Shown here in pieces: positions 2,262 through 33,495 of a DNA stretch of 41,405 bases. How positions within the stretch are numbered: the first letter of the stretch is position 1; every line of letters begins with the position of its first letter. The notes under the pieces were generated by a model. It saw only the letters and a program-made list of their open reading frames with translations, was not told the DNA's origin and ran no database searches. This DNA comes from Candidatus Omnitrophota bacterium (GTDB taxonomy: Bacteria; Omnitrophota; Gorgyraeia; Tantalellales; Tantalellaceae). Where the stretch lies: NCBI GenBank assembly GCA_015231405.1, contig JADGBR010000030.1, positions 480 to 41,884 on the forward strand, read 5' to 3'. The position numbers and the translations under genes are program-made.

Positions 2262-2306
2262 ATGTTGAGATTGCTTCACCCCGCTTTCGCGGGGTTCGCA
2301 ATGACG
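2217..2306. repeat. Dispersed palindromic repeat, copy 1
   Basis: The ends are an 11-bp perfect inverted repeat (CGTCATTGCGA / TCGCAATGACG). Inside lies a second perfect 11-bp pair (GAAGCAATCTC / GAGATTGCTTC) and a small hairpin CCCCGCTTTCGCGGGG, so the element can fold on either strand. Related copies lie at 33548-33692, 35823-35931 and 39909-39991. This copy supplies the 3' end of the receiver gene and the spacer before the next gene. It encodes no protein of its own. Confidence 0.9.
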
Positions 2307-2318
2307 ATGGAGGTAACA

Positions 2319-3299
2319 ATGAAAGACAGATCAGTGATCCTGGTCGTTGACGATCAGGCCCGGAACAACGAGCTTCTCGAAGCGTATCTTGTTCCCGAGG
2401 GTTATGAGATCGCTAAAGCGTCGGGCGGGGAAGAAGCGCTGGAAAAAATTTCCGCGGGCGGTATCGATCTGGTCCTCCTGGACATAATGATGCCTAAGAT
2501 GTCAGGGCTGGAAGTGCTGGAAAAATTGCGCGCCGGCGAAAAAACTCGGCTTATACCGGTCGTGATGGTGACCGCGCTCACCGAGACCGAAGACAAGATA
2601 AAAGCGCTTCTTTCTGGATGCGACGATTTTATTTCCAAGCCCGTCGATAAGGTCGAGCTGTTAGCGAGAGTTAAGTCCTTATTGAAGATAAGCCGTTATT
2701 CCGCGCGGCTCGAAGAAAATGAAAAGTTCAAGGCGACGGTCGATAAAATAAGCGACGGTATCGCGGTCTGCGCCACGAATTATCTGATCAAGGATTGTAA
2801 CGCGGCGCTTTTAAAGTATCTTGAGATCACCGACCCTGAGAACGTCGATCTTGTCGAAACAGTATTCCGGAAATATTCCGTTTCAATAAAGAAAGAAGGG
2901 CTTATGGACCTCGCGGTCACCCACGGCACATTCGATATCGTCCGGGAAGAAAAAGGGACGTTAGAGGCTTTATATTTAGAGACGACTCTGGATGTGATAA
3001 AAGATGCTTCCGGAGAGCCGGTCAGCGTGGTCTTTATTTTGAGGGATGTGACCGCGGCGCGTAAAGAAGGATCCATAAAACAGGGATCTCTCGCGCTGGT
3101 TTCACATAAGTTCAGCATGCCGCTGGGCGTGATCAGCGGGAAAATAGCGTTACTACTGGACGGCGCGTACGGCCCTCTTAACGAGGAACAGAAAAAAGCG
3201 GTCGACGACGTCTCTAAACAGTCTGTTTCCCTTATATCGATCGTGGAGGAACTCAAGGGGCAACCCATAGTATGCAGCCCCTCACAGCGGAAGATATAA
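2319..3299 (+). CDS. REC-PAS-DHp signalling protein without ATPase domain
   Basis: The protein is 326 residues. It has a full receiver domain (about 1-125, phospho-Asp in LVLLDIMMP, Lys in FISKP), a PAS-like domain (about 135-245) and a HisKA-like helical hairpin with the H-box VSHKFSMPL. It stops about 60 residues later, so no HATPase N-, G1- or G2-boxes exist. The start at 2319 is chosen because GGAGG at 2309-2313 precedes it and the conserved VILVVDD strand follows at once. An upstream in-frame ATG at 2262 would translate the repeat. Family knowledge suggests it could be a phosphotransfer or dimerisation partner of the upstream kinase, or a decayed hybrid kinase. Confidence 0.82.
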   Translation: MKDRSVILVVDDQARNNELLEAYLVPEGYEIAKASGGEEALEKISAGGIDLVLLDIMMPKMSGLEVLEKLRAGEKTRLIPVVMVTALTETEDKIKALLSGCDDFISKPVDKVELLARVKSLLKISRYSARLEENEKFKATVDKISDGIAVCATNYLIKDCNAALLKYLEITDPENVDLVETVFRKYSVSIKKEGLMDLAVTHGTFDIVREEKGTLEALYLETTLDVIKDASGEPVSVVFILRDVTAARKEGSIKQGSLALVSHKFSMPLGVISGKIALLLDGAYGPLNEEQKKAVDDVSKQSVSLISIVEELKGQPIVCSPSQRKI

Positions 3300-6712: not shown

Positions 6713-7909
6713 ATGAAAAAGAAGGTAGCACTTAGGTTGTCTATAATGATCACTGGTCTTTCGGTATTATCGGGGTGCGCCCATGTTCCTAGGCGCGCCG
6801 TGCCGGAAAACCTTGTCGGGCATGCCGTCGTTGCCGGCATGCCCGATATTCGCTGCTACGCGGAAAAACCCGCTTCACTTCTTATGCGGAAGAGCCTGGC
6901 CGATTCATTCGAACAGGAAGGTAAGTCGGATTATCTGGTTGACGGTACCAAGACCTATCCCGCTCTCATTATCGGCGGCGGCGTATCGAACAGCGCTTAC
7001 GGTATAGGACTCTTGAATGGGTGGGTAGAGGCGGGGACGCGTCCGGTATTTAAAATAATCACAGGATATTCGAGCGGGTCGCTTCTCGCAATAGCCACGT
7101 TCTCGGGAAAAGAATATGAGGACCGGCTTAGGCACCTCTTTACATCGATATCCACGAAAGATGTCATGAAAGAGAAGAATATTTTCAGCGTTATTTTCGG
7201 GGATTCGGTGAACAGCTCGGAGCTGTTCGGGAAAATGATCGATGATATAGTGGATGACGCCATGATGAGGGACATCGCGCGGGAGCACTCCAAGGGGCGG
7301 AGACTTTATATCGGGACCTCGGACCTTGACGCACAGGGGTTCGTCATATGGGATATGGGGGCTCTCGCGGCCAAAGGAGAGAAAGATGCGGTAAAGATGT
7401 TCCGCAAAATAGTTCTGGCTTCATGCTCTTTCCCCGTCATGATCCCTCCGGTTTATTTTCAGGTAGAAGCCGGCGGCAAGCGGTATGACGAGATGCATGC
7501 GGACGGCGGTGTCGTCGGCGGGCTGTTTTATGTGAACCAGCTAATGGAAGGAGCCGAGAGGGCGGTAAGCCCCGAAGGTGCGCGAACGAGGCTATACGTG
7601 CTGAATTGCTGTTACATGTCGCCGCATTCGAGACAGGTCGAGGACAACCTGACGGCCATAACCTCGCGCTTGATCGAGACCAACGGTTCGTCGAAGATGA
7701 GCGGCGACACTTACAGGATGTACGCTTTCGCGAAGGAAAAAGGATGGGATTATAATTTGGCTTATATCCCGGAAGATTTTGTGCCCGCACAGAAAGAGAT
7801 GTTCGACAAACTCGAAATGAAGAGGCTCTTCAAGCGCGGCTATGACGACGCCGCCGCGGGATATAAGTGGCACAAAGCCCCCCCGGGATTGATTGAAGAA
7901 GCAAAATAG
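6713..7909 (+). CDS. Patatin-like phospholipase, lipoprotein
   Basis: This 398-residue protein has a signal peptide with lipobox LSGC (Cys22), so it is predicted to be a membrane-anchored periplasmic or outer-membrane lipoprotein. The patatin fold is shown by the glycine-rich oxyanion loop GGG at 88-90, the nucleophile elbow GYSSG with Ser120, and the second member of the Ser-Asp dyad, Asp264 in ADGGV. Patatins hydrolyse acyl esters of phospholipids or other lipids. It lies downstream of a fused acyl-activating/acyltransferase enzyme, so the pair could deacylate and reacylate envelope lipids; that link is inferred from gene order. An SD-like AAAAGGGAAA precedes the ATG. No terminator is obvious after it. 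Confidence 0.88.
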   Translation: MKKKVALRLSIMITGLSVLSGCAHVPRRAVPENLVGHAVVAGMPDIRCYAEKPASLLMRKSLADSFEQEGKSDYLVDGTKTYPALIIGGGVSNSAYGIGLLNGWVEAGTRPVFKIITGYSSGSLLAIATFSGKEYEDRLRHLFTSISTKDVMKEKNIFSVIFGDSVNSSELFGKMIDDIVDDAMMRDIAREHSKGRRLYIGTSDLDAQGFVIWDMGALAAKGEKDAVKMFRKIVLASCSFPVMIPPVYFQVEAGGKRYDEMHADGGVVGGLFYVNQLMEGAERAVSPEGARTRLYVLNCCYMSPHSRQVEDNLTAITSRLIETNGSSKMSGDTYRMYAFAKEKGWDYNLAYIPEDFVPAQKEMFDKLEMKRLFKRGYDDAAAGYKWHKAPPGLIEEAK

Positions 7910-8159: not shown

Positions 8160-8187
8160 TTGATTAAAATTCACAATTCCTTAGAAT
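8160..8187 (+). promoter_or_regulatory. Candidate sigma-70 promoter for the orphan kinase
   Basis: TTGATT at 8160-8165 and TAGAAT at 8182-8187 are separated by 16 bases, matching the vegetative -35/-10 pattern at 4/6 and 5/6 positions. A transcript would begin near 8194, upstream of the ATG at 8210 but downstream of the alternative ATG at 8186. This is a pattern match only. Confidence 0.35.
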
Positions 8188-8209
8188 GGCACCATGGAAG
8201 GCGGTGAGC

Positions 8210-9406
8210 ATGGACCTTAAAATGAAAACCCTTGAAGAATCGGAACTCAGATACCGCAGGCTGTTCGAGTCGGCCAAGGACGGGATACTTATCCTGGATT
8301 ATGAGACGGGTATCATCCTGGATGTTAACCAGTTCCTGTTGGACCTCCTGGGATACTCAAGGGCCGATCTTTACGCGAAATATCTCTGGGAGGTCGGGGC
8401 TTTTAAGGATGTCCTGGAGTCTCAGAGCAAGTTCCTGGAATTGAAGAGAAAGGAATATGTCCGTTACGATGACCTACCGCTGGAAAAGAAGAACGGTCAA
8501 AAAGCGGCGGTCGAGTTCGTGAGCAACGTATATCTCGTAAATAACGAGAAGACCATCCAGTGCAATATCCGCGACATTACAGCGCGAAAGCACGCCGAAG
8601 AGAAACTCAAGGAAGCTAAGGCTATCGCCGAGCAGGTCACCGCCTCAAAGTCCGAATTTCTGATGAATATATCGCATGACATACGTACGCCGATGACAGT
8701 AATAAGCGGGTGCGCCGACCTTTTGATGAAAACGGCCCTCACCAAGGACCAGGCGAAGTACTGCATGATGATAAAGACTAAAGTCGGCGACCTTCTGAGT
8801 CTCGTGGAGGGCATCATCGATATCTCCGCGGTCGAAAAAGGGAAAGTCCGCATAGAAGAAAACCCGTTCAATATCCGGGACATAACGAAAGATATCAAGG
8901 AAACGTGCGAGATGCAGATAGCCGATAAAAATATCGGATTTGAATGCAACATCAAAGAAAATGTGCCCGAAAAGTTATTAGGCGACCCGATGCGTTTAAA
9001 ACAGATATTGGAGAACCTTTGCGGGAACGCCGTGAAATATACGGATGAAGGTAAAATAACGCTTACTATAAGCGCCGGAGACAAGGAGCTTGAAGGAGGA
9101 TCCCGGCTTCTCCATTTCGAGGTGGAGGATACAGGGCGCGGGATCTTAGAGGAACAGCTTCCGCATATTTTTGAGCCTTACACAAGATTTTATAAGCTGG
9201 GGCAAAAGATCAAAGGCGTCGGGCTTGGATTGCATATAGTAAAAACGCTCGTGAAAGAGATGGGCGGCGATGTCGCGGTCGGGTCCCTCTCGGGCAAGGG
9301 CAGTAAATTTTCGTTCGATATTAAAATGAGATCTCCGGGCGATAAGGCTAACGGAGATAGTGGTCCTATAGTAAGTAACTGTAAAAATGATCTAGCATCC
9401 GTGTAA
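8210..9406 (+). CDS. PAS-domain sensor histidine kinase, stand-alone
   Basis: This 398-residue soluble kinase has a PAS domain (about 10-125, with LFESAKDGILILD and DITARKHAEEKL at its ends), a phosphoacceptor domain with H156 in FLMNISHDIRTPM, and a HATPase domain with N-box NLCGNAVKYT, G1 DTGRGI and G2 GVGLGL. No transmembrane helix is seen. The start at 8210 is favoured by GGAAGGCGGTGAG just upstream. The ATG at 8186 lacks such a site. No response regulator follows it. It lies just upstream of the sigma-54-type promoter of the exopolysaccharide cluster, so it could act on an enhancer-binding regulator encoded elsewhere. That role is speculation. Confidence 0.88.
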   Translation: MDLKMKTLEESELRYRRLFESAKDGILILDYETGIILDVNQFLLDLLGYSRADLYAKYLWEVGAFKDVLESQSKFLELKRKEYVRYDDLPLEKKNGQKAAVEFVSNVYLVNNEKTIQCNIRDITARKHAEEKLKEAKAIAEQVTASKSEFLMNISHDIRTPMTVISGCADLLMKTALTKDQAKYCMMIKTKVGDLLSLVEGIIDISAVEKGKVRIEENPFNIRDITKDIKETCEMQIADKNIGFECNIKENVPEKLLGDPMRLKQILENLCGNAVKYTDEGKITLTISAGDKELEGGSRLLHFEVEDTGRGILEEQLPHIFEPYTRFYKLGQKIKGVGLGLHIVKTLVKEMGGDVAVGSLSGKGSKFSFDIKMRSPGDKANGDSGPIVSNCKNDLASV

Positions 9407-9506
9407 ACTGACTTATAAAGGTCGTTTTTTCAGTGCCTCCTCCCCCTTCCGGCCCCCCCCGGGAGGGGGATTATGGGGGTTCGTGATCGGTCCTGTAAGC
9501 TACGTT

Positions 9507-9562
9507 AGAATCCAGAATCCAGAATCCAGAATTCAGAATTCAGAATCCAGAATCCAGAATTC
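9507..9562. repeat. Eight tandem 7-bp units (AGAATYC)
   Basis: Eight consecutive 7-base units occur without interruption: five read AGAATCC and three read AGAATTC. The array lies about 180 bases upstream of the sigma-54 promoter. It is in no gene. Such short arrays are prone to slippage and could vary in copy number between strains, changing spacing to upstream sites. Confidence 0.9.
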
Positions 9563-9738
9563 GGGATTGTGGGGTGGGTGGGACAGAATATTGGACAGTT
9601 GATCCGGAATTATGGACATTGTCGCTGGTTCGGGGACGAGGAGAGGGATATGGGGTCAATTAAATCGGTCTATGCAAGAGAAGCGTTCATAACCAGTTGC
9701 GTTGTCGGTCCAGCGGATATTTCCGGGATAGCAGGATC

Positions 9739-9756
9739 TTGGCACGAATGTTGCTT
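9739..9756 (+). promoter_or_regulatory. Sigma-54 (-24/-12) promoter
   Basis: The sequence TTGGCACGAATGTTGCTT matches the RpoN consensus TGGCACG-N4-TTGCW at every position, with GG (9741-9742) and GC (9753-9754) ten bases apart. Transcription should start near 9766, giving a leader of about 75 bases to the ATG at 9841. Sigma-54 promoters need an enhancer-binding ATPase. None is encoded in this window. Known exosortase exopolysaccharide loci often carry a sigma-54-dependent regulator pair (PrsK/PrsR), which fits this placement. Confidence 0.88.
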
Positions 9757-9840
9757 GTGTAGGTAAGTGTATGCTTGACCTGGTGTGTCGTTGATAGATA
9801 GGGTTAGGGAAAAGCGGGTTCTAAAACAAGGAGACTTAAG

Positions 9841-10839
9841 ATGAACGATAGGTTAACGATCGCTGATGTAGCGGAGTCTTTGAAGGTGACGCCCCGGACG
9901 ATAATGCGGTGGGAGAAAACGGAAAAGATCAAAAGATCGAAAAGGGATTGGCGGGGCTGGAGGTTCTATAGCCGTGAAGATCTGGACGAGATAAGGAAGT
10001 TTTATGAAGGGACATATGAGAGCGGAAGGGATAGTAAAGCGGCCAACGGGAACATATTCAGGAATAAATTCTTAATGGCGGTCATATTGGCGAACATGTG
10101 TTTTTACGGTCCTATCTCTATGGACGCGGCAACGACAAATTTCGCGGCCAATCGGGGGGTGAAGGAGGCTCCGGGAATGGTAGATATTGTGCTGGCGGAC
10201 CTGCCGGCGGTCAATACACCCCAGACCGCGGTGTCCGAATCGCTCAAATATACGCTCGGGGCTAACGATGTCGTATCCATCGAGGTCAGGAGGCATCCGG
10301 AATTCGAAGGCCAGTACCAGGTTAACTCAGAGGGGAAAATAGGTTACAAATACGTCGGTGACATTATTGTTGCCGGGCTTACTAAAAACCAGCTGAAGGA
10401 CCGGCTGACCGAAGTCCTGTCGGCTTATCTGGTGAACCCCGAAGTGGATGTCCAGATCGTGGCTTATTTAAGTAAGGTCGTTTACGTGGTAGGAGATGTT
10501 ATGAACCCGGGAAAATTCTATATGCGGGGCGACACGATCCTTGTAAGGGAAGCGCTCGTGCAGGCCGGGCTCCCAACGCAGGCGGCTTCGTTACACAAAT
10601 GCCGGCTGATAACCCCTGACCAGCTCGGAGAGAACAATTTTCAGCTGGTCGACGTGCACAAGCTGCTTTACGAAGGTGACCTGAAATACAACATGGTCAT
10701 GAAGCCGGGCGATGTTCTGTATGTCCCCGCTACGCTCATAGCGTCAGTTATACGGGTTATTTCGCCTGTGACCAATGTGGTAAGCCAGGCCAGCGGTTCG
10801 GCTGTGCAGGGTGCCGCCGTTGCGGCTATGGCGCTGTAA
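9841..10839 (+). CDS. MerR-like HTH domain fused to Wza-like polysaccharide export protein
   Basis: The 332-residue protein begins with a MerR-type winged helix-turn-helix (about 5-57): IADVAESLKVTPRTIMRWEK, then a wing around RGWRFYSREDLDEI. A basic segment (R74, K76) and a hydrophobic stretch (77-92) follow and look like a signal sequence or membrane anchor. Residues 135-215 form a polysaccharide export domain (LGANDVVSIEV, SEGKIGYKYVGDI), followed by an SLBB-like domain (213-300, VVYVVGDVMNPGKF, MKPGDVLYVP). The C-terminus is hydrophobic and small-residue rich. Wza proteins form the outer-membrane export channel; a DNA-binding domain ahead of one is unusual. An internal ATG at 10075 (residue 79) could give a form without the HTH. 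It is first in the cluster, behind the sigma-54 promoter. Confidence 0.88.
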   Translation: MNDRLTIADVAESLKVTPRTIMRWEKTEKIKRSKRDWRGWRFYSREDLDEIRKFYEGTYESGRDSKAANGNIFRNKFLMAVILANMCFYGPISMDAATTNFAANRGVKEAPGMVDIVLADLPAVNTPQTAVSESLKYTLGANDVVSIEVRRHPEFEGQYQVNSEGKIGYKYVGDIIVAGLTKNQLKDRLTEVLSAYLVNPEVDVQIVAYLSKVVYVVGDVMNPGKFYMRGDTILVREALVQAGLPTQAASLHKCRLITPDQLGENNFQLVDVHKLLYEGDLKYNMVMKPGDVLYVPATLIASVIRVISPVTNVVSQASGSAVQGAAVAAMAL

Positions 10840-10870: not shown

Positions 10871-12187
10871 ATGGAACAAGAAACAAAAATCCCAAAAAGC
10901 CCGATAGATTACCTGAAACTGTTCTTTCACAGAAAATGGCTGATCATAGTCCCGACGGTGATCGGTATCGTCGGGGGTCTGGCGGCCGGGAACATGCTGC
11001 CAAAACAGTACGAATCATCCACCCTTATTCTTGTTGAAGAAGGCCGGGTCATAAACCCGCTTATCGAGGGTCTGGCGGTTTCCACGAGCGTGGCCCAGCG
11101 CCTTAATGTCCTAAGGGAGCAGATCCTGGGGTGGGACAGGCTGAACCAGCTGATCAAGAAACTCGACCTCGCGAAAGGCGTTTGGGACCAGCGCGGATTT
11201 GAAGCCCTGGTCAAGAGATTGAGGAGATACATACAGGTGACGCGATACGGGCAGAACATCGTGCGTATATCATATGTCGGCAAGGACGCGACCGAATCGA
11301 TGAACATCGTTAAGACCATTACCGATATATTCATCGCCGAGAACCTGAAACAGCAGAGCGGTGAAACGGATAACGCCATATCTTTCATAAACGACCAGCT
11401 GGCGCTTTATGAGAAAAAGCTCAAACAATCCGAAATATCCGCGATGGAGGAGGTGCTCAAGAAACTTCTCGTGGATTCGACTGACGCCCATCCGATGGTC
11501 ATAGATCTGAGGGGCAAAATAAACGCGGCGAAATCCGACCTGGAACAGGGCAAATACACGATCGGGTCGGCGGATAAAACAAAGAACAGCGAGGAGATGA
11601 AAGAGCTTAAGGAAGAACTCGCGGGAATAAGAGATGAGCTTAACACTTCCAGCCTGGACGCCGATAAAGGCGGAGAGAACCGTACAAAGCTCTCGGATGC
11701 CGCGAACGGCAAGTTATACAAATTACTTCTGCTCGAGCGCGTCCAGAAGGTAACGTCCGAAGACGACGCCGGAGTTAATAAGAAATTGTACAATGCACTT
11801 CTCGAGCGGCTTGAGACCGCGAAGATCACGCAGCAGCTCGAAGCGTCAAAAGACGGGACGCGGTACACCATACTCGACCCGGCGCGCCTCCCTCTTACTC
11901 CGATAAAGCCGAATAAGCTCTATGTCCTCATATTCGGGATATTCATGGGGATGTGCGGAGGGTTCGCGCTGGTCCTGGCGGTCGAGATGCTGGACCATTC
12001 ATTTCTCGGGGTAGATGAGGCCAGGGAAAGTCTGGGGATGTATCTTCTGGGGGCTATCCCGAAGATAATCACCGAGAAGGATATTAAAGCCCAAAGGCTC
12101 AGAAAGATCAAGGTAGCCAGCGTTTCGATCCTTACCACCGGAGTGCTTCTAGTCGCTATCATATACAACGTCTTACTGGGAGGATAG
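10871..12187 (+). CDS. Wzz-type chain length determinant protein
   Basis: This 438-residue inner-membrane protein has a first helix at about 23-42, a long periplasmic coiled-coil region and a second helix at about 350-372, preceded by the proline-rich LPLTPIKPNKL typical of Wzz/GNVR proteins. A third hydrophobic segment ends the protein (420-438). Such proteins control polysaccharide chain length and pair with a cytoplasmic tyrosine kinase, which is encoded two genes on. The start at 10871 follows AAGGAGA. A longer in-frame ATG at 10811 overlaps the previous gene and adds no family sequence. Gene order (exporter, Wzz, ExeA-like ATPase, kinase) is that of exosortase-A exopolysaccharide loci. 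Confidence 0.92.
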   Translation: MEQETKIPKSPIDYLKLFFHRKWLIIVPTVIGIVGGLAAGNMLPKQYESSTLILVEEGRVINPLIEGLAVSTSVAQRLNVLREQILGWDRLNQLIKKLDLAKGVWDQRGFEALVKRLRRYIQVTRYGQNIVRISYVGKDATESMNIVKTITDIFIAENLKQQSGETDNAISFINDQLALYEKKLKQSEISAMEEVLKKLLVDSTDAHPMVIDLRGKINAAKSDLEQGKYTIGSADKTKNSEEMKELKEELAGIRDELNTSSLDADKGGENRTKLSDAANGKLYKLLLLERVQKVTSEDDAGVNKKLYNALLERLETAKITQQLEASKDGTRYTILDPARLPLTPIKPNKLYVLIFGIFMGMCGGFALVLAVEMLDHSFLGVDEARESLGMYLLGAIPKIITEKDIKAQRLRKIKVASVSILTTGVLLVAIIYNVLLGG

Positions 12188-12190
12188 AAG

Positions 12191-13027
12191 ATGTACGATA
12201 AATATTACGGCCTGGATGAAAAACCGTTCAATCTGACGCCTGATTCGAGGTATTTCTTCCATAGCTTGAAGCATGAAGAAGCCCTTAACCGCCTTTTGCT
12301 GGCGATAAGCGAAAGGAACGGTTTCGCCGTCATTACGGGTGAGATAGGCTCCGGGAAAACGACAGTCCTTAGAACCCTTCTAAGCAAGCTTAACCGGGAA
12401 ACGAAGGTGGCGCTGGTCATGAACACCTATCTCTCGAAAAAAGAACTGCTGACGACGATACTTGAGGACCTGGGCGTCGAGTACACGTCGCTATCCAAGA
12501 CGCATCTTTTGAGGGCGCTTAACGACTATCTGGTCGCGCAGGCGGCGCTCGGCGTGAATGTCGTACTTATGATCGATGAGGCCCAGAACCTGGCGCCTAC
12601 GGTCCTTGAGGAAGTGAGGATGCTTTCCAATATGGAGACCGAGGAGGAGAAACTGATACAGATAATACTTGTGGGTCAGCCCGAGCTCCGAAAGAAGCTT
12701 TTGCGCCCCGGGCTCGAGCAGTTCAGCCAAAGAGTGGTGTTCTATTATCATCTCGGGTCATTGGACTATGACGAAACGAAACGGTATATAAGCCATAGGC
12801 TGGAAAGGTCCGGGAGGAAAGGCGATGACCTGTTCTCCGAGGAAGCCATTGAGGAGATATACGCCTATTCGAACGGCATCCCGAGACTCATCAATATCGT
12901 CTGTCACAATTCGCTAATAACGGGTCTTGTCAGGGACGCGGACAGTATTACAGGGAGTATCGTCCGGGAAACGACCGGCGAGCTGATACACAATAGAAAT
13001 TCGATGCACGCGGAAAAAATATGCTAG
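12191..13027 (+). CDS. ExeA-like AAA ATPase of the exosortase exopolysaccharide locus
   Basis: This 278-residue P-loop ATPase opens with the family motif MYDKYYGLDEKPFNLTPD, has Walker A GEIGSGKT (50-57) and Walker B LMIDEAQ with D129/E130. A VGQPEL segment follows, and the C-terminal helical lid contains NGIPRLINIVC. ExeA-type ATPases of this length are a marker of XrtA/PEP-CTERM loci, where they sit between the chain-length protein and the tyrosine kinase, exactly as here. The precise role is not established in the family; energising assembly of the export complex is a common suggestion. It begins three bases after the Wzz stop. It lacks the C-terminal peptidoglycan-binding extension of longer ExeA proteins. 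Confidence 0.92.
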   Translation: MYDKYYGLDEKPFNLTPDSRYFFHSLKHEEALNRLLLAISERNGFAVITGEIGSGKTTVLRTLLSKLNRETKVALVMNTYLSKKELLTTILEDLGVEYTSLSKTHLLRALNDYLVAQAALGVNVVLMIDEAQNLAPTVLEEVRMLSNMETEEEKLIQIILVGQPELRKKLLRPGLEQFSQRVVFYYHLGSLDYDETKRYISHRLERSGRKGDDLFSEEAIEEIYAYSNGIPRLINIVCHNSLITGLVRDADSITGSIVRETTGELIHNRNSMHAEKIC

Positions 13028-13058: not shown

Positions 13059-13904
13059 ATGGGAAGGATAACGGAAGCTCTAAGAAAAGTATCCGACGAA
13101 CGCGTGGAAAAGATAAAAAAAAGACCGGCTCCGGCTTATGTGGCGAAAAGGTTAGACGGAGCGGCCATAGAGGAGCACGTCGTGACTTTTCACGACCCGA
13201 TGTCGCCTATATCCGAACAGTATAATATGCTCCGGACGAATATACAGCAGCTGAAAAAATCCAAGCGGCATAAAACGTTCATCATAACTAGCTCAAGGGA
13301 CGGCGAAGGGAAAACGGTCACTTCGACGAACCTGGCCATAGCTATGGCCAGGGACAGTGATAACGGTTCGGTGCTTTTAGTGGACGCGGATATGAGAAGA
13401 GGTAAAGCCGCCGAGTATCTGGGGATAGCTGCGAGCCCCGGTCTCGCCGAACTATTGTCGGGGAAAGCGGACTTAGGCGACGTCATAATAACACCGGGCG
13501 TTGCCGATCTCGAGGTCGTCGTTTCGGGGAAGACGCCGAAAAATCCATCGGAGCTCCTGAATTCGAAAAAGATGAAAGATGTTATGGCCGCTTTCAAGTC
13601 AAGGTATGACTACATCATAATCGATACGCCTCCCGTCATGTCGGTCGCGGACGCCTGTATCCTAGGGCCTATGGCCGACGGGGTCATACTTGTCGTCCAG
13701 GCCGGAAGGACCCAGCGGGACATGGTAAAGAACTCCGAAAAGAAGGTAAAGCAGGCCGGGGGGGAGATAGCGGGTTTTGTTATGACAAAAACAGAGTACC
13801 ATCTGCCGGGATACTTATCCAGGTATATGCAGCAGTACGACAGCTACTACGCTTATCACGAATACAAACGGAACGGTACAAACCACAAGGAGAGTGCGGC
13901 ATGA
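13059..13904 (+). CDS. Polysaccharide tyrosine autokinase (BY-kinase)
   Basis: This 281-residue cytoplasmic kinase of the CpsD/Wzc-C family has Walker A SSRDGEGKT with K85, Walker A' LLVDADMRR, Walker B IIIDTPPV and a C-terminal tyrosine cluster (YMQQYDSYYAYHEY, six tyrosines) for autophosphorylation. It should pair with the Wzz protein two genes upstream, which carries the membrane part, and cycle phosphorylation to tune polymer length and export. An N-terminal region of about 55 residues links it to the membrane partner. AGGAGAG precedes the ATG. Its stop overlaps the following PEP-CTERM gene by four bases. Confidence 0.93.
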   Translation: MGRITEALRKVSDERVEKIKKRPAPAYVAKRLDGAAIEEHVVTFHDPMSPISEQYNMLRTNIQQLKKSKRHKTFIITSSRDGEGKTVTSTNLAIAMARDSDNGSVLLVDADMRRGKAAEYLGIAASPGLAELLSGKADLGDVIITPGVADLEVVVSGKTPKNPSELLNSKKMKDVMAAFKSRYDYIIIDTPPVMSVADACILGPMADGVILVVQAGRTQRDMVKNSEKKVKQAGGEIAGFVMTKTEYHLPGYLSRYMQQYDSYYAYHEYKRNGTNHKESAA

Positions 13905-14167
13905 AGTACAAAATGATCCTAACTTTAACGGCGGTCGTCCTGTTGACGATCATGTCTACCGGGTGCCAGCTTGGCGGTTCAGGCGGTTCAGGCGGTTCGG
14001 GTTTCTCGGGTTCGGGAGACGGCGGTTCCGCAGGCGGGTCGGTAAGCGGCGCAGGTTCAGGCGGCATCGGGTCGTCTAACGTTCCGCACAACCCGGAGCC
14101 GGCGACTATGGCTCTTGTCGGTATAGGTGTGGCGGGATACGCCTGGTATAGGAGAAGGAAAAAATAG
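13901..14167 (+). CDS. Small Gly/Ser-rich PEP-CTERM protein with possible lipobox
   Basis: This 88-residue secreted protein has an N-terminal signal sequence ending STGC (Cys22), a Gly/Ser-rich centre built from 9-base repeats (residues 25-60), and a textbook PEP-CTERM signal: Pro65-Glu66-Pro67, a hydrophobic segment ALVGIGVAG and a terminal RRRKK. It is therefore a predicted substrate of the exosortase at 32040. STGC differs from a strict lipobox at -3, so lipidation is uncertain. If lipidated, it would carry two membrane-targeting signals. AAGGAGA precedes the ATG and it overlaps the kinase stop by ATGA. Long frames on other strands here are shadows of the repetitive Gly/Ser sequence. Confidence 0.87.
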   Translation: MKYKMILTLTAVVLLTIMSTGCQLGGSGGSGGSGFSGSGDGGSAGGSVSGAGSGGIGSSNVPHNPEPATMALVGIGVAGYAWYRRRKK

Positions 14168-14208: not shown

Positions 14209-15207
14209 ATGCGCGGCAAAGAAAAGATCTTAATAACCGGCGGCGCGGGTTTCATAGGTTCGCATTTGGCGGACGCGCTGATAAAGGAAGGGCACAAAGT
14301 TAACGTTATAGACGACTTGTCCACGGGTAGTATGGAAAATGTCGCCGGGCTGATGGACAACGAGAACTTCAGCTTCACTCATGGAACGATCATGGACGAG
14401 CTGACGATGGAAAAGCTCGCCGAGTGGGCGGACACGATCTACCATCTCGCGGCCGCGGTAGGGGTGAAATACGTCCTGGATAATCCGCTTAAAAGCATGG
14501 AAGTGAACGTTAAAGGAACGGAGATAGTTCTGGAGCTGGCCGCGAGGAATAGAAAAAAAGTACTTCTCGCTTCCACATCCGAAGTTTATGGAAAGAACAC
14601 GAGCTCTGTTTTTACGGAGACGGCGGATATAGTACTGGGCGCGACGAAGACCACGCGCTGGAGCTACGCGTGCGCGAAAGCGCTGGATGAGTTTTTAGGG
14701 CTTGCTTACGCCCGGGAGAAAGCCCTTCCCGTGGTAATAGTCCGCTTCTTTAACACGGTCGGGCCGAGGCAGACAGGAAGATACGGTATGGTCATCCCGC
14801 GATTTGTCAGTAACGCCCTCTTTGATCTTCCGATACCTGTTCACGGGGACGGAAAACAGACACGGAGTTTTACGTATGTCGGCGACGTCGTCAGAGGGAT
14901 CATGGGCCTCGTAAATGATCCGAAAGCCGTAGGCGAAGTTTTCAACATCGGGAATCCGGAAGGAATTACGATAGAAGATCTCGCCATAAAGATCAAAAAG
15001 ATGACAGGGTCAAGATCGGATATAGTCAAAATACCTTACGCTCAGGCTTACGGGGAAGGGTTCGAGGATATGCGTTACCGCGTACCGGATATAAGTAAGA
15101 TCCATGAACTTACCGGCTTCGCGCCCAGAATTTCGCTGGATGAGATATTGGAGCGGGTAATAGAATTTGCCAGGGCCTCAATGCTTGTAGGGACGGGGAA
15201 AAAGTGA
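14209..15207 (+). CDS. NAD-dependent nucleotide-sugar epimerase/dehydratase
   Basis: This extended short-chain dehydrogenase (332 residues) has the Rossmann motif GGAGFIG near the N-terminus, a STSEVYG active-site segment, the catalytic YXXXK as YACAK, and RFFNTVGPRQ plus the IGNPE motif typical of sugar-nucleotide enzymes. The closest pattern is that of UDP-glucuronate decarboxylase, UDP-glucose 4-epimerase or dTDP-glucose dehydratase types; the substrate cannot be decided by eye. It should supply an activated sugar to the nearby transferases. The start at 14209 has GGAGG five bases upstream. An ATG at 14197 is an alternative but has no such site. It ends in a GTGA overlap with the next gene. 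Confidence 0.9.
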   Translation: MRGKEKILITGGAGFIGSHLADALIKEGHKVNVIDDLSTGSMENVAGLMDNENFSFTHGTIMDELTMEKLAEWADTIYHLAAAVGVKYVLDNPLKSMEVNVKGTEIVLELAARNRKKVLLASTSEVYGKNTSSVFTETADIVLGATKTTRWSYACAKALDEFLGLAYAREKALPVVIVRFFNTVGPRQTGRYGMVIPRFVSNALFDLPIPVHGDGKQTRSFTYVGDVVRGIMGLVNDPKAVGEVFNIGNPEGITIEDLAIKIKKMTGSRSDIVKIPYAQAYGEGFEDMRYRVPDISKIHELTGFAPRISLDEILERVIEFARASMLVGTGKK

Positions 15208-17054
15208 AGAACGCCGTTATTCTCGTGATCTTTCTGGGGATATCCGCCTCGCGAACGGCTTATTGCGGCGAGACGGAGCTGAATGTCTGGGCCGCGGGGG
15301 AAAGCCATAAGATAGACCCCGTCTCGGGCAGGGACTTCAACCCTTTCGCGGCGAAGAATATCGGCGAAAAGAACTACGTATGGGACAGGCGTTCGGGCAC
15401 AGTAACGCTCTACGGCGCAAAGAACGAATACGTATCTTTCCAGATCATCATAACGGCAAAGGACAAGGACGCCGGGAATGTCAACGTCGAGATCTCGGGT
15501 CTTAATGGCGCCGGGGTAATATCCACCGGTGAAATAGAGCTTTTCAGGGAATTTTATACTACGACATGGCACTTGAGCGACTGGCCCCAGCCGACAACGG
15601 GGCTCGGATCCTATCCGGACGCGCTTATCCCTTTTAAAACCCCGAAATTCGGAGCGCCTTTCAATATAAAGAAGAAGACGAACCAGGCGGTATGGGTAGA
15701 TATACGGGTCCCTAAGGAAGCCCCCGCCGGAGAATATACGGGCGAGATATCGGTATCGGCCGGCGGCATAACGGAGGCGAAGTTAAAACTTGTCCTTAAT
15801 GTCTGGGATTTTACCCTGCCGGATGAAAAACACCTCATGTTCTGGTCCAATTACTATATGATCGACAGAATGTACGGAGCCGAGCAGGGCTCGGAGCGTT
15901 ATACCGGGATCGAACAAAGCGTCTGGAAGATAGCGCACGAACACAGGCTTGACGCTTTATTAAGACACGCCCCGATAAGGCCGACGGGTACGGCGGATCA
16001 GTACGGACGGATCACGTTCGATTTCCGGGATTACGCGTACCGCTTAAAGCCTTATCTTAGCGGGGAGCTGTTCAGGGACAAACTGCCGCCCAAAATATTT
16101 TTACTGCCCTTGAGCGGCGGTACAGAGTATACCTGGCCGACGTCGGACGTAGACAGGGACGGGACTTTCAGTTACGCGTGTTCCGAATTCGCCGAATATT
16201 ACAGGGAAATGGGATGGGGTCTCGACAACAGGTATATCTATCTTTCAGATGAACCCGCGCCGGAAATGATACATAAGATAGTTCACGACGCGAAGCTGGT
16301 ACATGAGGCCGACAAAGACCTGAAGACGATGGTCGCGTTGCACGCGGCATTTAACGCCGATACCCTGAATAAACTTTCCGGTTCGGTGGATATGTGGCTT
16401 ATAGACGCGTCTCATTACAATAGCGGATTGCTTAAACCAAGGCAGGAGATCGGGGAAAAGATAGGATTTTATCAGCAGGGCGAACCCTGGTGCGGTAATG
16501 AGAACCTGGATTCGGACGGATTGGGTTTTACAACATGGCCTTGGATAGCTTGGAAATACGGCGTCGACTGTGTTTACCTGTACTCCATGACCGAATGGGA
16601 CGGGCTTGAAACCGGGCATACGGTCTGGGAGTACGCCCATAATAAATCCTGGAGTAATTCCCAGGGCGTCCTTGTATATCCGGGTTACTTCGTTGGTATA
16701 GAAGACGTCGTGGGGTCTATCCGCCTTAAACAGGTAAGAAGAGGCATGCAGGATTATGAGTATATGTACCTGGCGAAGTCTTTAGGGAGGTCTCCCGACG
16801 CGGTCGTCGATTCGATAGTTATCCGCGCGCTGGATGAAACGTCCAAGCCGGGAGGGACGTACGGGGAATGGTCGCATGATCCTGAAGACTGGTTCAACGC
16901 GAGGAAAGACCTGGCGCGTCTTGTCCTCGGCGAAAAGCCCCTTTTTAACAAAATAAAAGGCGTCCCCCCGGAAGGCGCGGTCCAAAGAACGGCGGCGCCC
17001 AAAACCGGTATCAAAAGCAGGATCAAGAACGCGGTAAAAAGGATCATTCAGTAG
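15204..17054 (+). CDS. Secreted GH123-like protein (DUF4091)
   Basis: This 616-residue protein starts with a signal peptide (about 1-21, ending TAYCG) and an N-terminal beta-sandwich (residues 25-205). A TIM-barrel catalytic region follows, with the adjacent acid pair D349-E350 in YLSDEPAPE. That Asp-Glu pair is the catalytic signature of glycoside hydrolase family 123 and related DUF4091 proteins, which cleave beta-linked N-acetylgalactosamine by substrate-assisted catalysis. The late motif GMQDYEYMYLAK is also characteristic. In an exopolysaccharide operon it could trim or release polymer; that is inference. It starts with GTG overlapping the epimerase stop. The C-terminus is basic, with no PEP-CTERM signal. 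Confidence 0.85.
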   Translation: MKNAVILVIFLGISASRTAYCGETELNVWAAGESHKIDPVSGRDFNPFAAKNIGEKNYVWDRRSGTVTLYGAKNEYVSFQIIITAKDKDAGNVNVEISGLNGAGVISTGEIELFREFYTTTWHLSDWPQPTTGLGSYPDALIPFKTPKFGAPFNIKKKTNQAVWVDIRVPKEAPAGEYTGEISVSAGGITEAKLKLVLNVWDFTLPDEKHLMFWSNYYMIDRMYGAEQGSERYTGIEQSVWKIAHEHRLDALLRHAPIRPTGTADQYGRITFDFRDYAYRLKPYLSGELFRDKLPPKIFLLPLSGGTEYTWPTSDVDRDGTFSYACSEFAEYYREMGWGLDNRYIYLSDEPAPEMIHKIVHDAKLVHEADKDLKTMVALHAAFNADTLNKLSGSVDMWLIDASHYNSGLLKPRQEIGEKIGFYQQGEPWCGNENLDSDGLGFTTWPWIAWKYGVDCVYLYSMTEWDGLETGHTVWEYAHNKSWSNSQGVLVYPGYFVGIEDVVGSIRLKQVRRGMQDYEYMYLAKSLGRSPDAVVDSIVIRALDETSKPGGTYGEWSHDPEDWFNARKDLARLVLGEKPLFNKIKGVPPEGAVQRTAAPKTGIKSRIKNAVKRIIQ

Positions 17055-30079: not shown

Positions 30080-32043
30080 GAATACTTTTCATCATATCGA
30101 GTAAGGGGTTTTACGGCGCGGAGAACGTCGTCTCGAACCTCGCGGGCGTTATGAAAAAGAACGGGGGAGAGCCGTATCTAATATGCCTGAAAAGCGCGTC
30201 GCGGAACGATCCGGAGATCCACGCGAAGGCCCTCTCTCAGGGGATAGAGAGCCGTGTCATAGTATGCAAGAGGAAATTGGACATTAAGGCGATCCTTGAA
30301 ATAAGGTCGTTCATTAAAAAAAAGAAGATAGATCTCCTGCATACGCATAATTACAAAAGCGACGTCCACGGTTTTATCGCCGCGAGGCTAGCGGGCGTCC
30401 CGGTCATGGCGACTCTGCACGGCTGGACAAGCGAGAACGGTAAGGTCAGGGTTTACGAAATGATCGACAGGTTCTTCCAGAGGCGGATGGACGCCCTGGT
30501 CGCGGTATCGCCGGAGATATTCAGCGGAGCGCGCGGGCTTGGGATAAGCCCGGATAAGATAACGCTCATCCATAACGCGGTCGATACCGTTCTGTTCGAT
30601 CCGGTTCGTGGGAATAGGTCCTTAAGGGAGAAGATAGGATTACTGGACTGTTTCGTGGCGGGTACGGCCGGCAGGCTGGCAAGGGAGAAAGGCCAGATAT
30701 ATCTCCTTAAGGCCTTCAAAGAGGTATGCCGCTCGGTGGGGAATGTCAGATTGCTGATAGCGGGCGACGGCGATCAAAGAGAAAGTTTAATGGCCCTTAC
30801 AAGCCTTTTGGGGATCAAAGACAAAGTGATCTTTTCCGGGGAACAGCGCGATATGCCTTCGGTGTATAAGTGCATGGACGTGTTTATCCTGCCTTCTCTC
30901 ACCGAAGGGGTCCCGATGGCTCTACTGGAAGCGATGAGCATGGGTCTTCCCGTGATAGCTTCAAGGGTCGGCGGGATACCTGACATAATCGATCGGGGGG
31001 GGGGCCTTTTAGTCGAACCGGGTGATGTGAAAGGGCTTACCGGGGCGATATTGACGGTCATGAAAAGAAGGGTAATGCGTTCAAGGATGGCGGCCAAGGG
31101 AAGAGAACGCGTCATAAACGAGTACTCGCTGGATAATTTTTACGCGCGTTACCGCGGCGCTTACGATAAGGCGATCGGACGCGCGCGGGTTAAGAACGTT
31201 CTATCCGTTGACGTGGAAGATTATTTTCAGGTGGAGAACTTTAAAAAGGTGGTCGGGTTCTCCGACTGGCCTAAATACGAGGCGAGGGTCGTGAACAACA
31301 CAGGAAAGATCCTGGGAATTCTCGCCAATGCCGGCGTGAGGGCGACATTTTTTGTTTTGGGATGGACCGCCGAAAGGTTCCCGGCGCTGGTCAAACTTAT
31401 ACGCTCCTCGGGGCATGAAGTGGCAAGCCACGGATACGCGCACGATCCCATATTCAACCAAACGAGAAGATCTTTCCGGTCCGATCTCGTAAGGTCGAAG
31501 AAAATACTTGAGGACATCATCGGGGAGCCAGTCCTTGGATACCGCGCGCCGACGTTTTCGCTGACGGAAAGGTCGCGCTGGGCCCTTGAGATACTGAAAG
31601 AGGAGGGGTTCAAATACGATTCGAGCGTATTGCCCGTATCGCATAAGACGAGGGGTATACCCGGCGCCCAAAGGTTCCCGTACGCGGTCCCGGGCGGAAG
31701 CGCTCCGCTTTGGGAATTCCCCGTATCGACTTTCAGGATGTTCAACAGGAACCTGTCTTTCGCGGGCGGGGGATATTTCAGGTTGTACCCTTACCGGTTC
31801 GTTAAACATTTGATCGGAGAGATGAACCGGGAGAACCATCCCGCGGTAGTATACGTGCATCCGTGGGAGCTCGACCCGTCTCAGCCGAGGATAAAGGCGG
31901 ACCGCATGAGCAGTTTTAAACATTACGTGAACCTGTCGCGAACGGAAGATAAATTAACGAGGCTTTTGGAAGATTTCGATTTCGGGCCCATAAAAGAGGT
32001 TTTCAAGGAACAGCTTGAAATAACGGGAGGAGTTGCCATATGA
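30076..32043 (+). CDS. GT4 glycosyltransferase fused to exosortase-locus polysaccharide deacetylase
   Basis: This 655-residue chain has a GT4 transferase (1-365: ISSKGFYGAENVVSNL, LIHNAVD, GDGDQRESL, TEGVPMALLEAMSMGLPVI) joined to a polysaccharide deacetylase of the XrtA type (372-655). The deacetylase has the metal site SVDVEDY (Asp382), SHGYAHD (His452, His456), YRAPTFS (Arg490) and VYVHPWELDP, so it looks fully active. In other exosortase loci this deacetylase is a separate gene. There is no signal peptide, so it should work in the cytoplasm. A run of ten G occurs in the transferase half. It starts with GTG and overlaps both neighbours. Confidence 0.92.
   Translation: MRILFIISSKGFYGAENVVSNLAGVMKKNGGEPYLICLKSASRNDPEIHAKALSQGIESRVIVCKRKLDIKAILEIRSFIKKKKIDLLHTHNYKSDVHGFIAARLAGVPVMATLHGWTSENGKVRVYEMIDRFFQRRMDALVAVSPEIFSGARGLGISPDKITLIHNAVDTVLFDPVRGNRSLREKIGLLDCFVAGTAGRLAREKGQIYLLKAFKEVCRSVGNVRLLIAGDGDQRESLMALTSLLGIKDKVIFSGEQRDMPSVYKCMDVFILPSLTEGVPMALLEAMSMGLPVIASRVGGIPDIIDRGGGLLVEPGDVKGLTGAILTVMKRRVMRSRMAAKGRERVINEYSLDNFYARYRGAYDKAIGRARVKNVLSVDVEDYFQVENFKKVVGFSDWPKYEARVVNNTGKILGILANAGVRATFFVLGWTAERFPALVKLIRSSGHEVASHGYAHDPIFNQTRRSFRSDLVRSKKILEDIIGEPVLGYRAPTFSLTERSRWALEILKEEGFKYDSSVLPVSHKTRGIPGAQRFPYAVPGGSAPLWEFPVSTFRMFNRNLSFAGGGYFRLYPYRFVKHLIGEMNRENHPAVVYVHPWELDPSQPRIKADRMSSFKHYVNLSRTEDKLTRLLEDFDFGPIKEVFKEQLEITGGVAI
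30995..31004. repeat. Run of ten G within a coding region
   Basis: Ten consecutive G lie in codons for Asp-Arg-Gly-Gly-Gly in the GT4 half of the fused transferase-deacetylase. A change of one base would truncate the protein before the donor-binding end and lose the deacetylase. It is the longest homopolymer I noticed in the window. It could also be a place for sequencing error, but the frame is intact. Confidence 0.9.
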
Positions 32044-32876
32044 ACGGCAAACAAACGGCGATATTCGGGTTCTCATTGAGCGTTGTGCTTTTAACGGTCT
32101 CCTATATACCAGCCATAAAATGGATGGTCGAGAGGTGGATGGAGCCTGAATCCTATTACAGTCATGGTTTTCTGGTGCCTGTTATCTCTCTCTTCATAGC
32201 GTGGACCCGAAGGGGGTCCTTGAAGGACGCGAAGATGGATACCGGGATAAATGGCCTTGTGATAGCCGGGGTCTTTCTTCTTATCAACATAGCGAGCGCG
32301 TCCCTCAGGATCTATTTCATATCGGGGTTCACGCTGGTTTTCGTATTATACGGGCTTGTCCTCCATTTTTTCGGGCGGGTCGTCGTGAAGAACATGTTGT
32401 TCCCGATATTCTTCCTTTTGGCGATGGTGCCTCTCCCGCTGGTACTTATAGGCAATTTAACGGTCGCTCTCAAGCTTTTTGTCGCGGACAGCTCGGTCTT
32501 TGTCCTGAACCTTATCGGGTTCCCGTCGGTTCGGGACGGGAGCATGATACGGATGCCCGGGTCTTTCATTCTTGTAGCGGCTCCGTGCAGCGGGCTTCGG
32601 TCTTTGATAGCGCTTCTCACTCTGGGCGTTGTTTTCGCCTACGCGGCAAAGATATCTTTATTCAGGAAAAGCCTGCTTTGTTTATCGGCCATACCGATAG
32701 CCCTCGCTTCGAACCTGGCCAGAATAACGGTACTGGCGATAGTGAACGATCTTTACGGACAAAAGGTGGCGATGGGGTTCTTTCACGACTTTTCCGGGTT
32801 AATGGTGTTCGTCCTGGCTTTCGTCGGACTTTTTTCCGTGAACAACCTGCTGGAAGACGGAGCTGGAAATGGATAA
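32040..32876 (+). CDS. xrtA: Exosortase (EpsH family)
   Basis: This 278-residue membrane transpeptidase has about eight helices and the invariant catalytic residues: Cys183 in AAPCSGLRS, Arg228 in NLARIT and His249 in FFHDFSG. Exosortases recognise C-terminal PEP-CTERM signals, cleave near the motif and are thought to join the protein to a lipid or glycan. Predicted substrates in the window are the proteins at 13901 and 34813. Unlike longer members, EpsI is not fused here but encoded by the next, overlapping gene. The XrtA subclass is inferred from the surrounding XrtA-type kinase, ATPase, deacetylase and transferases. ATGA overlaps the upstream gene. Confidence 0.93.
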   Translation: MNGKQTAIFGFSLSVVLLTVSYIPAIKWMVERWMEPESYYSHGFLVPVISLFIAWTRRGSLKDAKMDTGINGLVIAGVFLLINIASASLRIYFISGFTLVFVLYGLVLHFFGRVVVKNMLFPIFFLLAMVPLPLVLIGNLTVALKLFVADSSVFVLNLIGFPSVRDGSMIRMPGSFILVAAPCSGLRSLIALLTLGVVFAYAAKISLFRKSLLCLSAIPIALASNLARITVLAIVNDLYGQKVAMGFFHDFSGLMVFVLAFVGLFSVNNLLEDGAGNG

Positions 32877-33495
32877 GACGGCGATAAAACACATGGCGCT
32901 CTTTCTTGTATTATCGGTGGCGAGCCTCCTGTCGCTGGGCCTTTTTTTCAGGCAGGTCTCCGACCGGGACGTCCTTGATATCGGGGTTTTCCCGTATACG
33001 GTCGACGGCTGGGAAGGGAAGGACCTCACGATAGAGGAGTACGAGTACGACATATTGGAGACAAGAAATATAGTTTTACGCGAATATACCGATCCCGCCG
33101 GGAATAAGCTCACGCTTTTCATTATATACTCCGAGACCAACAGGTCCGTATTTCATCCTCCGGAAGTATGTCTTATAGGAAGCGGAGTGACTATAAGCGC
33201 CAAGGTCACGGACACCATAGATATCCCAGGGTCCATCCCGTTCAAGGTAAATAAACTATACATCGGGGATAAAGGCCAAAAAGAGATAGTACTCTATTGC
33301 TATAAGACAGACAGGCTTTACACCGATAATTATTACCTCCAGCAGTTCATGTTCACCATGAACCAGTTCATCGGCGGCAAAAAAGGCGGCGCGACGATCA
33401 GGGTATCGATGCAAGTATCGCGCACCGAGGGCGAGACCCTGGAGACGCTTAAGCATTTCATGCGGGAGACCGCGAAGATAGTGAACGCTCTCTAA
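32869..33495 (+). CDS. epsI: EpsI family exosortase partner
   Basis: This 208-residue protein has one N-terminal membrane helix (about 8-26) and a periplasmic domain of the EpsI/DUF3485 family. It has the conserved HPPEVCLIGSG segment with Cys, a WEGKDL strand near the start and YCYKTD in the middle. EpsI is found beside or fused to exosortases. Its exact role is not established, but the fixed association suggests a helper in processing or polymer handling. The gene overlaps the exosortase by eight bases and ends the long cluster begun at 9841. No classical terminator follows; the repeats at 33498-33692 do. Confidence 0.92.
   Translation: MDKTAIKHMALFLVLSVASLLSLGLFFRQVSDRDVLDIGVFPYTVDGWEGKDLTIEEYEYDILETRNIVLREYTDPAGNKLTLFIIYSETNRSVFHPPEVCLIGSGVTISAKVTDTIDIPGSIPFKVNKLYIGDKGQKEIVLYCYKTDRLYTDNYYLQQFMFTMNQFIGGKKGGATIRVSMQVSRTEGETLETLKHFMRETAKIVNAL

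Follow-up and report, generated by a model that had tools for sequence, protein, structure and literature searches.

Does an open reading frame at the head of a polysaccharide operon in Candidatus Omnitrophota truly join a DNA-binding domain to a Wza-like exporter, and what might a protein built in this way do? We addressed this question in a stretch of 41,405 nucleotides (hereafter the window) from contig 23 of a 3.66-Mb genome. Positions 9841-10839 encode a single protein of 332 amino acids with an ATG start, in which a MerR/BldC-type winged helix-turn-helix (HTH) is followed by a hydrophobic segment and a Wza-like (OPX) export part:

9841-10839, + strand: HTH-exporter fusion gene, 332 aa (open reading frame, Pfam domains, AlphaFold2)
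9841-10020, + strand: MerR/BldC-like winged HTH, residues 1-60, signature RDWRGWR (MerR_1, PDB, AlphaFold2, Foldseek)
10066-10122, + strand: hydrophobic segment, residues 76-94, former signal peptide, now internal (hydropathy, internal-start analysis, alignment)
10243-10458, + strand: Poly_export (PES) domain, residues 135-206 (PF02563, 6.8e-20; Wza 2j58, 5e-31 by sequence search against the PDB)
10474-10725, + strand: SLBB domain, residues 212-295 (PF22461, SLBB_2, 4.7e-7)
10735-10833, + strand: C-terminal helix, residues 299-331, possible outer-membrane helix (AlphaFold2)

Searched alone against Pfam, the N-terminal 76 residues matched MerR_1 (1.1e-9; 38.7 bits, cut-off 21.6), and the same reading frame matched Poly_export at 71.5 bits (cut-off 28) and SLBB_2 at 30.3 bits (cut-off 27); an OmpR-type domain was not among the Pfam matches of the fusion. 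Sequence searches against the PDB linked the HTH profile to 3qao (1.6e-8) and to the BldC-DNA complexes 6amk/6ama (3e-6). An AlphaFold2 model built with 96 aligned sequences contained a confident winged HTH at residues 1-62 (block pLDDT mostly 88-97), a short helix at residues 76-88 and an export fold with pLDDT mostly 93-98, and Foldseek matched the export part to Wza/OPX (3.5e-16) and the HTH to RacA/BldC/MerR, with RacA as the top fold match. The HTH ends near residue 60 and passes into the linker and membrane segment, with no C-terminal dimerisation helix or effector domain. These results bear out an earlier note on this DNA, which had read the frame as an N-terminal MerR-type winged HTH followed by export and SLBB-like domains, and confirm that the window carries a true HTH-exporter gene fusion.

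We found no published description of such a fusion in the literature, and the term 'helix-turn-helix' is not mentioned in a survey of OPX proteins (PMC9603273). The relatives that we compared, mostly Candidatus Omnitrophota, came from 384 genomes of the class, in which RDWRGWR-type HTHs were counted at E < 1e-23. The HTH was present in 84 genomes and fused in 11, in frames of 325-370 aa; the earlier note's suggestion to look for the same fusion in other Omnitrophota thus yielded full-length fusions in 10 further genomes, and its concern that the HTH might be absent from all homologues fell away. Most HTH genes stand alone, at about 60-130 aa, directly upstream of an export gene, which followed in nearly all of 80 named loci (at two the contig ends first; at L065 and L084 it is weaker or further away). 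The gap in these split pairs had a median of 26 nt, with 17 of 72 export genes overlapping the HTH stop by 4-23 nt, and a strong ribosome-binding site and Sec signal peptide of their own were found in all 72 stand-alone export genes scored by a procedure that picked the best Shine-Dalgarno sequence and hydrophobic N-terminus and is biased towards finding both. Lipoprotein export was rejected, the one lipobox regex match among the 72 split export genes being judged spurious.

In a FastTree phylogeny of the HTH and export domain, ten fusions formed a single clade (support 0.997) with split pairs as its sister group; the fusion of genome G141, in which the roughly 20-residue linker of the main fused clade is missing, was placed among split genes (support 0.986). 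Fusion therefore arose at least twice independently, from a probable ancestral state in which HTH and exporter were adjacent, often overlapping and normally separate genes. Among MerR relatives, the HTH itself is of the effector-less BldC/RacA-like kind, and it normally has a small separate gene beside that of the exporter. An assembly frameshift as the cause of fusion was ruled out by the 11 genomes, the two origins and the varied in-frame linkers. An HTH of similar strength is missing from the other sampled members of the window's own family, a hint of horizontal acquisition or repeated loss.

Within the ten-member clade the HTH is the best-conserved part (mean pairwise identity 77%, compared with 70% for PES, 66% for SLBB and 27% for the linker and membrane segment), and its pN/pS was 0.03-0.23 in five pairs, a rough range given that synonymous sites are near saturation. 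Taken with the lack of a second RDWRGWR HTH in the window's genome, these values indicate that the HTH is kept under selection in the fusion, which would most simply be selection for DNA binding.

The fusion gene heads a same-strand run of XrtA/PEP-CTERM polysaccharide genes, which also includes glycosyltransferases, an XrtA deacetylase and a sugar transferase:

10871-12187, + strand: polysaccharide chain-length determinant, Wzz-like, XrtA type (TIGR03007, 9.9e-76)
12191-13027, + strand: XrtA/PEP-CTERM-associated ATPase (TIGR03015, 4.8e-91)
13059-13904, + strand: BY-kinase, a tyrosine autokinase (TIGR01007, 7.5e-53)
13901-14167, + strand: 88-aa PEP-CTERM protein (PF07589, 2.4e-7)
32040-33495, + strand: exosortase and EpsI (TIGR02602, 160 bits; TIGR02914, 76 bits; both above cut-off)

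This is an exosortase/PEP-CTERM exopolysaccharide locus. Because AAGGAG precedes the ATG at 10871, the chain-length gene probably starts there rather than at the GTG listed at 10811. A GH123-type glycoside hydrolase is also encoded within the polysaccharide biosynthesis run (15204-17054). The fusion resembles Wza/OPX proteins of the XrtA type in its PES domain, SLBB domain and C-terminal helix and in heading an operon with a chain-length protein, kinase and exosortase, but it has the HTH in front of the signal-peptide-like segment, which is therefore internal, and carries no N-terminal signal peptide or lipobox; against the XrtA-type model TIGR03027 it scored 94.4 bits (cut-off 180).

The earlier note had also placed the fusion gene first after a promoter, as we found. 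The operon appears to start at a sigma-54 promoter, new in this analysis, which lies between two sets of repeat-like elements upstream of the gene:

9581-9618, + strand: GGACA motif in three copies, spaced by 12 and 21, some 120-160 bp before the promoter (sequence)
9740-9756, + strand: sigma-54 (-24/-12) promoter TGGCACGAATGTTGCTT of the operon (unique exact match in the genome; homologous upstream regions)
9775-9797, + strand: candidate operator-like element TTGACCTGGTGTGTCGTTGATAG, diverged, immediately after the promoter (alignment with TGTCATAGTGTTTCATRGACA)
9828-9833, + strand: Shine-Dalgarno sequence AAGGAG of the fusion gene (sequence; duplex energy -8.5)

The promoter is the only exact TGGCACN5TTGCTT match in the genome, and sigma-54-like sites were found in 62 of 80 homologous upstream regions compared with 0.25 in shuffles. 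Beside this promoter, relatives carry direct repeats of the unit GGACATACTA with a period of exactly 10 bp: 71 RGACA pairs had this spacing in 46 of the 80 regions, against 0.05 in shuffles, with neighbouring periods near zero, and conservation of GGACATACTA extends beyond the selected letters to the TACTA part, which was not selected for. Two placements of the repeats were seen: in direct orientation immediately after the promoter, and, mostly in reverse orientation, about 110-165 bp upstream of it. Genome-wide, the pattern of promoter followed by two repeats occurred in 22 of the 384 genomes, once in each (backward control, 0), and at each of the 22 sites an HTH gene, in one case the G141 fusion, begins no more than about 270 bp downstream; the upstream form matched in 13 genomes, in 11 of them at the HTH gene. 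Given that promoter and repeats always lie by the HTH gene and that BldC binds head-to-tail direct repeats at the site CAATTCGGACAATTCGGACA, which includes GGACA (PMC5859096), the most likely role of the HTH is to regulate the operon that encodes it. The direct regulation of the cluster proposed by the earlier note is thus probable, as something we infer from promoter and repeat genomics, by which it is well supported.

The window itself combines a perfect promoter with a diverged operator. Its GGACA motifs are weak because their 12/21 spacing differs from the 10-bp period of the relatives, and TTGACCTGGTGTGTCGTTGATAG, likewise weak, corresponds in alignment to TGTCATAGTGTTTCATRGACA, which fused-clade relatives carry at this position. 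The equivalent of BldC Arg30 is kept in 80 of 81 HTHs, whereas that of Lys26 is Lys in 70 and Arg in 10, the latter being the ten proteins of the fused clade, whose operator has changed to TGTCATAGTGTTTCATRGACA; as the two changes coincide in one clade only, they amount to a single evolutionary event and are only suggestive. A regulon search with three repeats gave a co-occurrence with the HTH of 26/84 versus 11/300, which we did not use as evidence because most matches away from the HTH begin TGTCAAYRGGACA, like mobile-element ends, and such arrays were rejected as regulon members. At L174, L176-L178, L182 and L184-L187, all in HTH-bearing genomes, arrays of three GGACA repeats that begin (TG)TCAAYRGGACA share the 10-bp period and likewise resemble the ends of mobile elements. 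At L175 (G225:C57:12459), repeats lie 115 bp upstream of a sigma-54 promoter before a gene that encodes a PEP-CTERM protein of 110 aa and may be a second HTH target.

The family resembles Streptomyces BldC, by sequence and fold, as a small winged HTH without effector or dimerisation domain, and further in its retained Lys26/Arg30 equivalents and in direct-repeat sites containing GGACA (PMC5859096); tandem operators of the BldC type near target promoters characterise the family at large, with only weak elements in the window. BldC, however, is a free protein of 68 residues that uses 9-bp repeats, whereas the family described here has a 10-bp period and the signature RDWRGWR, and the window copy, fused to an exporter, scored 24.8 bits against NCBIfam HTH_BldC (NF033787; cut-off 77).

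The explanation that we favor, and consider probable though well short of secure, is that a BldC/MerR-like autoregulator has been fused to the neighbouring Wza-like exporter, such that the HTH tunes the operon at a dose tied to exporter synthesis. The ancestral gene pair would come first in an Omnitrophota XrtA/PEP-CTERM polysaccharide operon driven by sigma-54; the HTH would most likely bind the repeats beside the promoter and tune, probably repress, its own operon, and the exporter's signal peptide would serve the fusion as a membrane anchor. With each exporter molecule made, one HTH module would then arrive, its N-terminus inside, at the inner membrane, where in most relatives signal peptidase would free the exporter and leave a membrane-tethered HTH, while the window protein possibly stays whole; cleaved or whole, the dose and position of the regulator would be tied to exporter synthesis. 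Speaking against this explanation, the repeats could belong to another regulator, those of the window itself are weak, as described above, and a signal peptide behind a folded domain of 75 residues may work poorly. If the fused HTH does control the operon that encodes it, a single polypeptide, in place of a kinase relay, would give the cell a direct measure of exporter synthesis, a slime-coat secretion machine may carry its own gene switch, BldC-like regulators would extend from free to membrane-tethered proteins, and a mode of regulation would be suggested for exosortase/PEP-CTERM polysaccharide loci in a large uncultured phylum.

The fate of the hydrophobic segment bears directly on the alternatives. 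The earlier note had described a hydrophobic anchor, and a segment is indeed present at residues 76-94, but it descends from the exporter's ancestral Sec signal peptide, and a signal-peptidase I motif (A-X-A-like, small residues at -3/-1), judged by the (-3,-1) rule rather than SignalP, follows it in 10 of the 11 fusions. In many fusions, therefore, the HTH may be severed from the exporter and stay behind in the inner membrane; the poor site of the window (SMDA|ATT) means that its own protein may stay whole. A one-component regulator resembling ToxR or CadC, in which the intact protein senses the secretion machine through its periplasmic export domain and the HTH alters transcription, would agree with that poor site, with the predicted cytoplasmic HTH, single membrane span and periplasmic domain, and with five fusions, described below, in which the fused form is obligatory. 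It accords less well with the cleavage motif of the other fusions and with the fold, which is Wza-like with a long C-terminal helix even though a protein that is not cleaved would stay fixed to the inner membrane. ToxR and CadC also differ in their OmpR-type winged HTH, where the fusion has a MerR/BldC-type domain, a transport component as its periplasmic part and a span derived from a possibly cleaved signal peptide. We regard such a regulator as possible though unlikely: of the ToxR-like link drawn by the earlier note, the joining of HTH, hydrophobic segment and exporter stands, whereas a permanent link is not the default. Transmembrane sensing by the exporter is likewise possible, not preferred, and it is doubtful that an uncleaved trans-envelope protein uses the exporter as sensor, with ring assembly clustering up to eight HTHs under the inner membrane; were this so, completion or blockage of export would directly set transcription of the export operon.

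A different possibility is that the stop between two neighbouring genes was lost by drift, leaving a working HTH, a membrane attachment devoid of regulatory meaning and a normally cleaved exporter. The overlaps of 4-23 nt in 17 of the 72 split pairs imply that a single indel suffices for fusion, cleavage motifs are kept, and in five fusions (G266, G219, G251, G075 and G094) a strong in-frame internal Shine-Dalgarno sequence and ATG (duplex energies -8.8 to -13.0) stand just before the signal peptide and would give a normal exporter, so one reading frame may yield both fusion and plain exporter. Strong internal starts within the fused clade lie at loci L043, L044, L045, L046 and L135. Drift is nevertheless an unlikely explanation, since two independent fusions were retained, one clade spans several families, the HTH is under strong purifying selection and obligate fusions exist: G032, G038, G245, G092 and G141 have no usable internal start, and that of the window is weak. 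Since internal starts are kept in some fusions and missing in others, a single phylum contains split, dual-start and obligate-fusion states, and the steps by which two neighbouring genes may have become a membrane regulator can be tested directly.

The genome encodes a single RpoN and, about 2 kb away in the adjacent position on contig 21, a single strong enhancer-binding protein, with other PF00158 matches weak. In this only strong sigma-54 activator (L200:1042-2412), beside rpoN, the N-terminus resembles a receiver domain but seems degenerate. Sigma-54 promoter control of exosortase/PEP-CTERM genes is known from PrsK/PrsR/PrsT (Haft 2006, PMC1569441), where the motif for the activator spans 17 nt, ends in TTTACA and was found in Proteobacteria only; here, by difference, a BldC-like HTH gene is accompanied by GGACATACTA repeats. 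Promoter and repeats might belong to a PrsR-like enhancer-binding protein, with the HTH anchoring the chromosome in the manner of RacA, its top fold match, or binding elsewhere, and the strong enhancer-binding protein does resemble the PrsR model TIGR02915, at 327 bits and below the cut-off of 502.6. We consider this improbable, as a separate palindrome, TGTTYA-N6-TAAACA, present in 14 of the 80 upstream regions (0.25 in shuffles) about 120-150 bp upstream of the promoter and adjoining the upstream repeat form, appears to suit a Fis-type enhancer-binding protein better. If the palindrome belongs to that protein, the direct repeats would fall to the HTH, as with BldC; tandem direct repeats fit a BldC-like monomer, and they often lie downstream of the start site.

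Finally, the earlier note had allowed for translation from 10075 alone, in which case the HTH would never be made; an ATG is present there, but such an artefact is so improbable as to be ruled out as the sole start, given that the Shine-Dalgarno sequence is strong at 9841 and weak at 10075 (duplex energy -4.3) and that the HTH is conserved and under purifying selection in the 10 other fusions.

Upstream of the operon, the window encodes a histidine kinase of the PAS type (8186-9406) and a response-regulator receiver protein (2262-3299), and a patatin-like phospholipase (6713-7909) adjoins the kinase gene. A short tandem repeat of AGAATCC/AGAATTC, recognised by eye at 9505-9561, is probably simple-sequence DNA.
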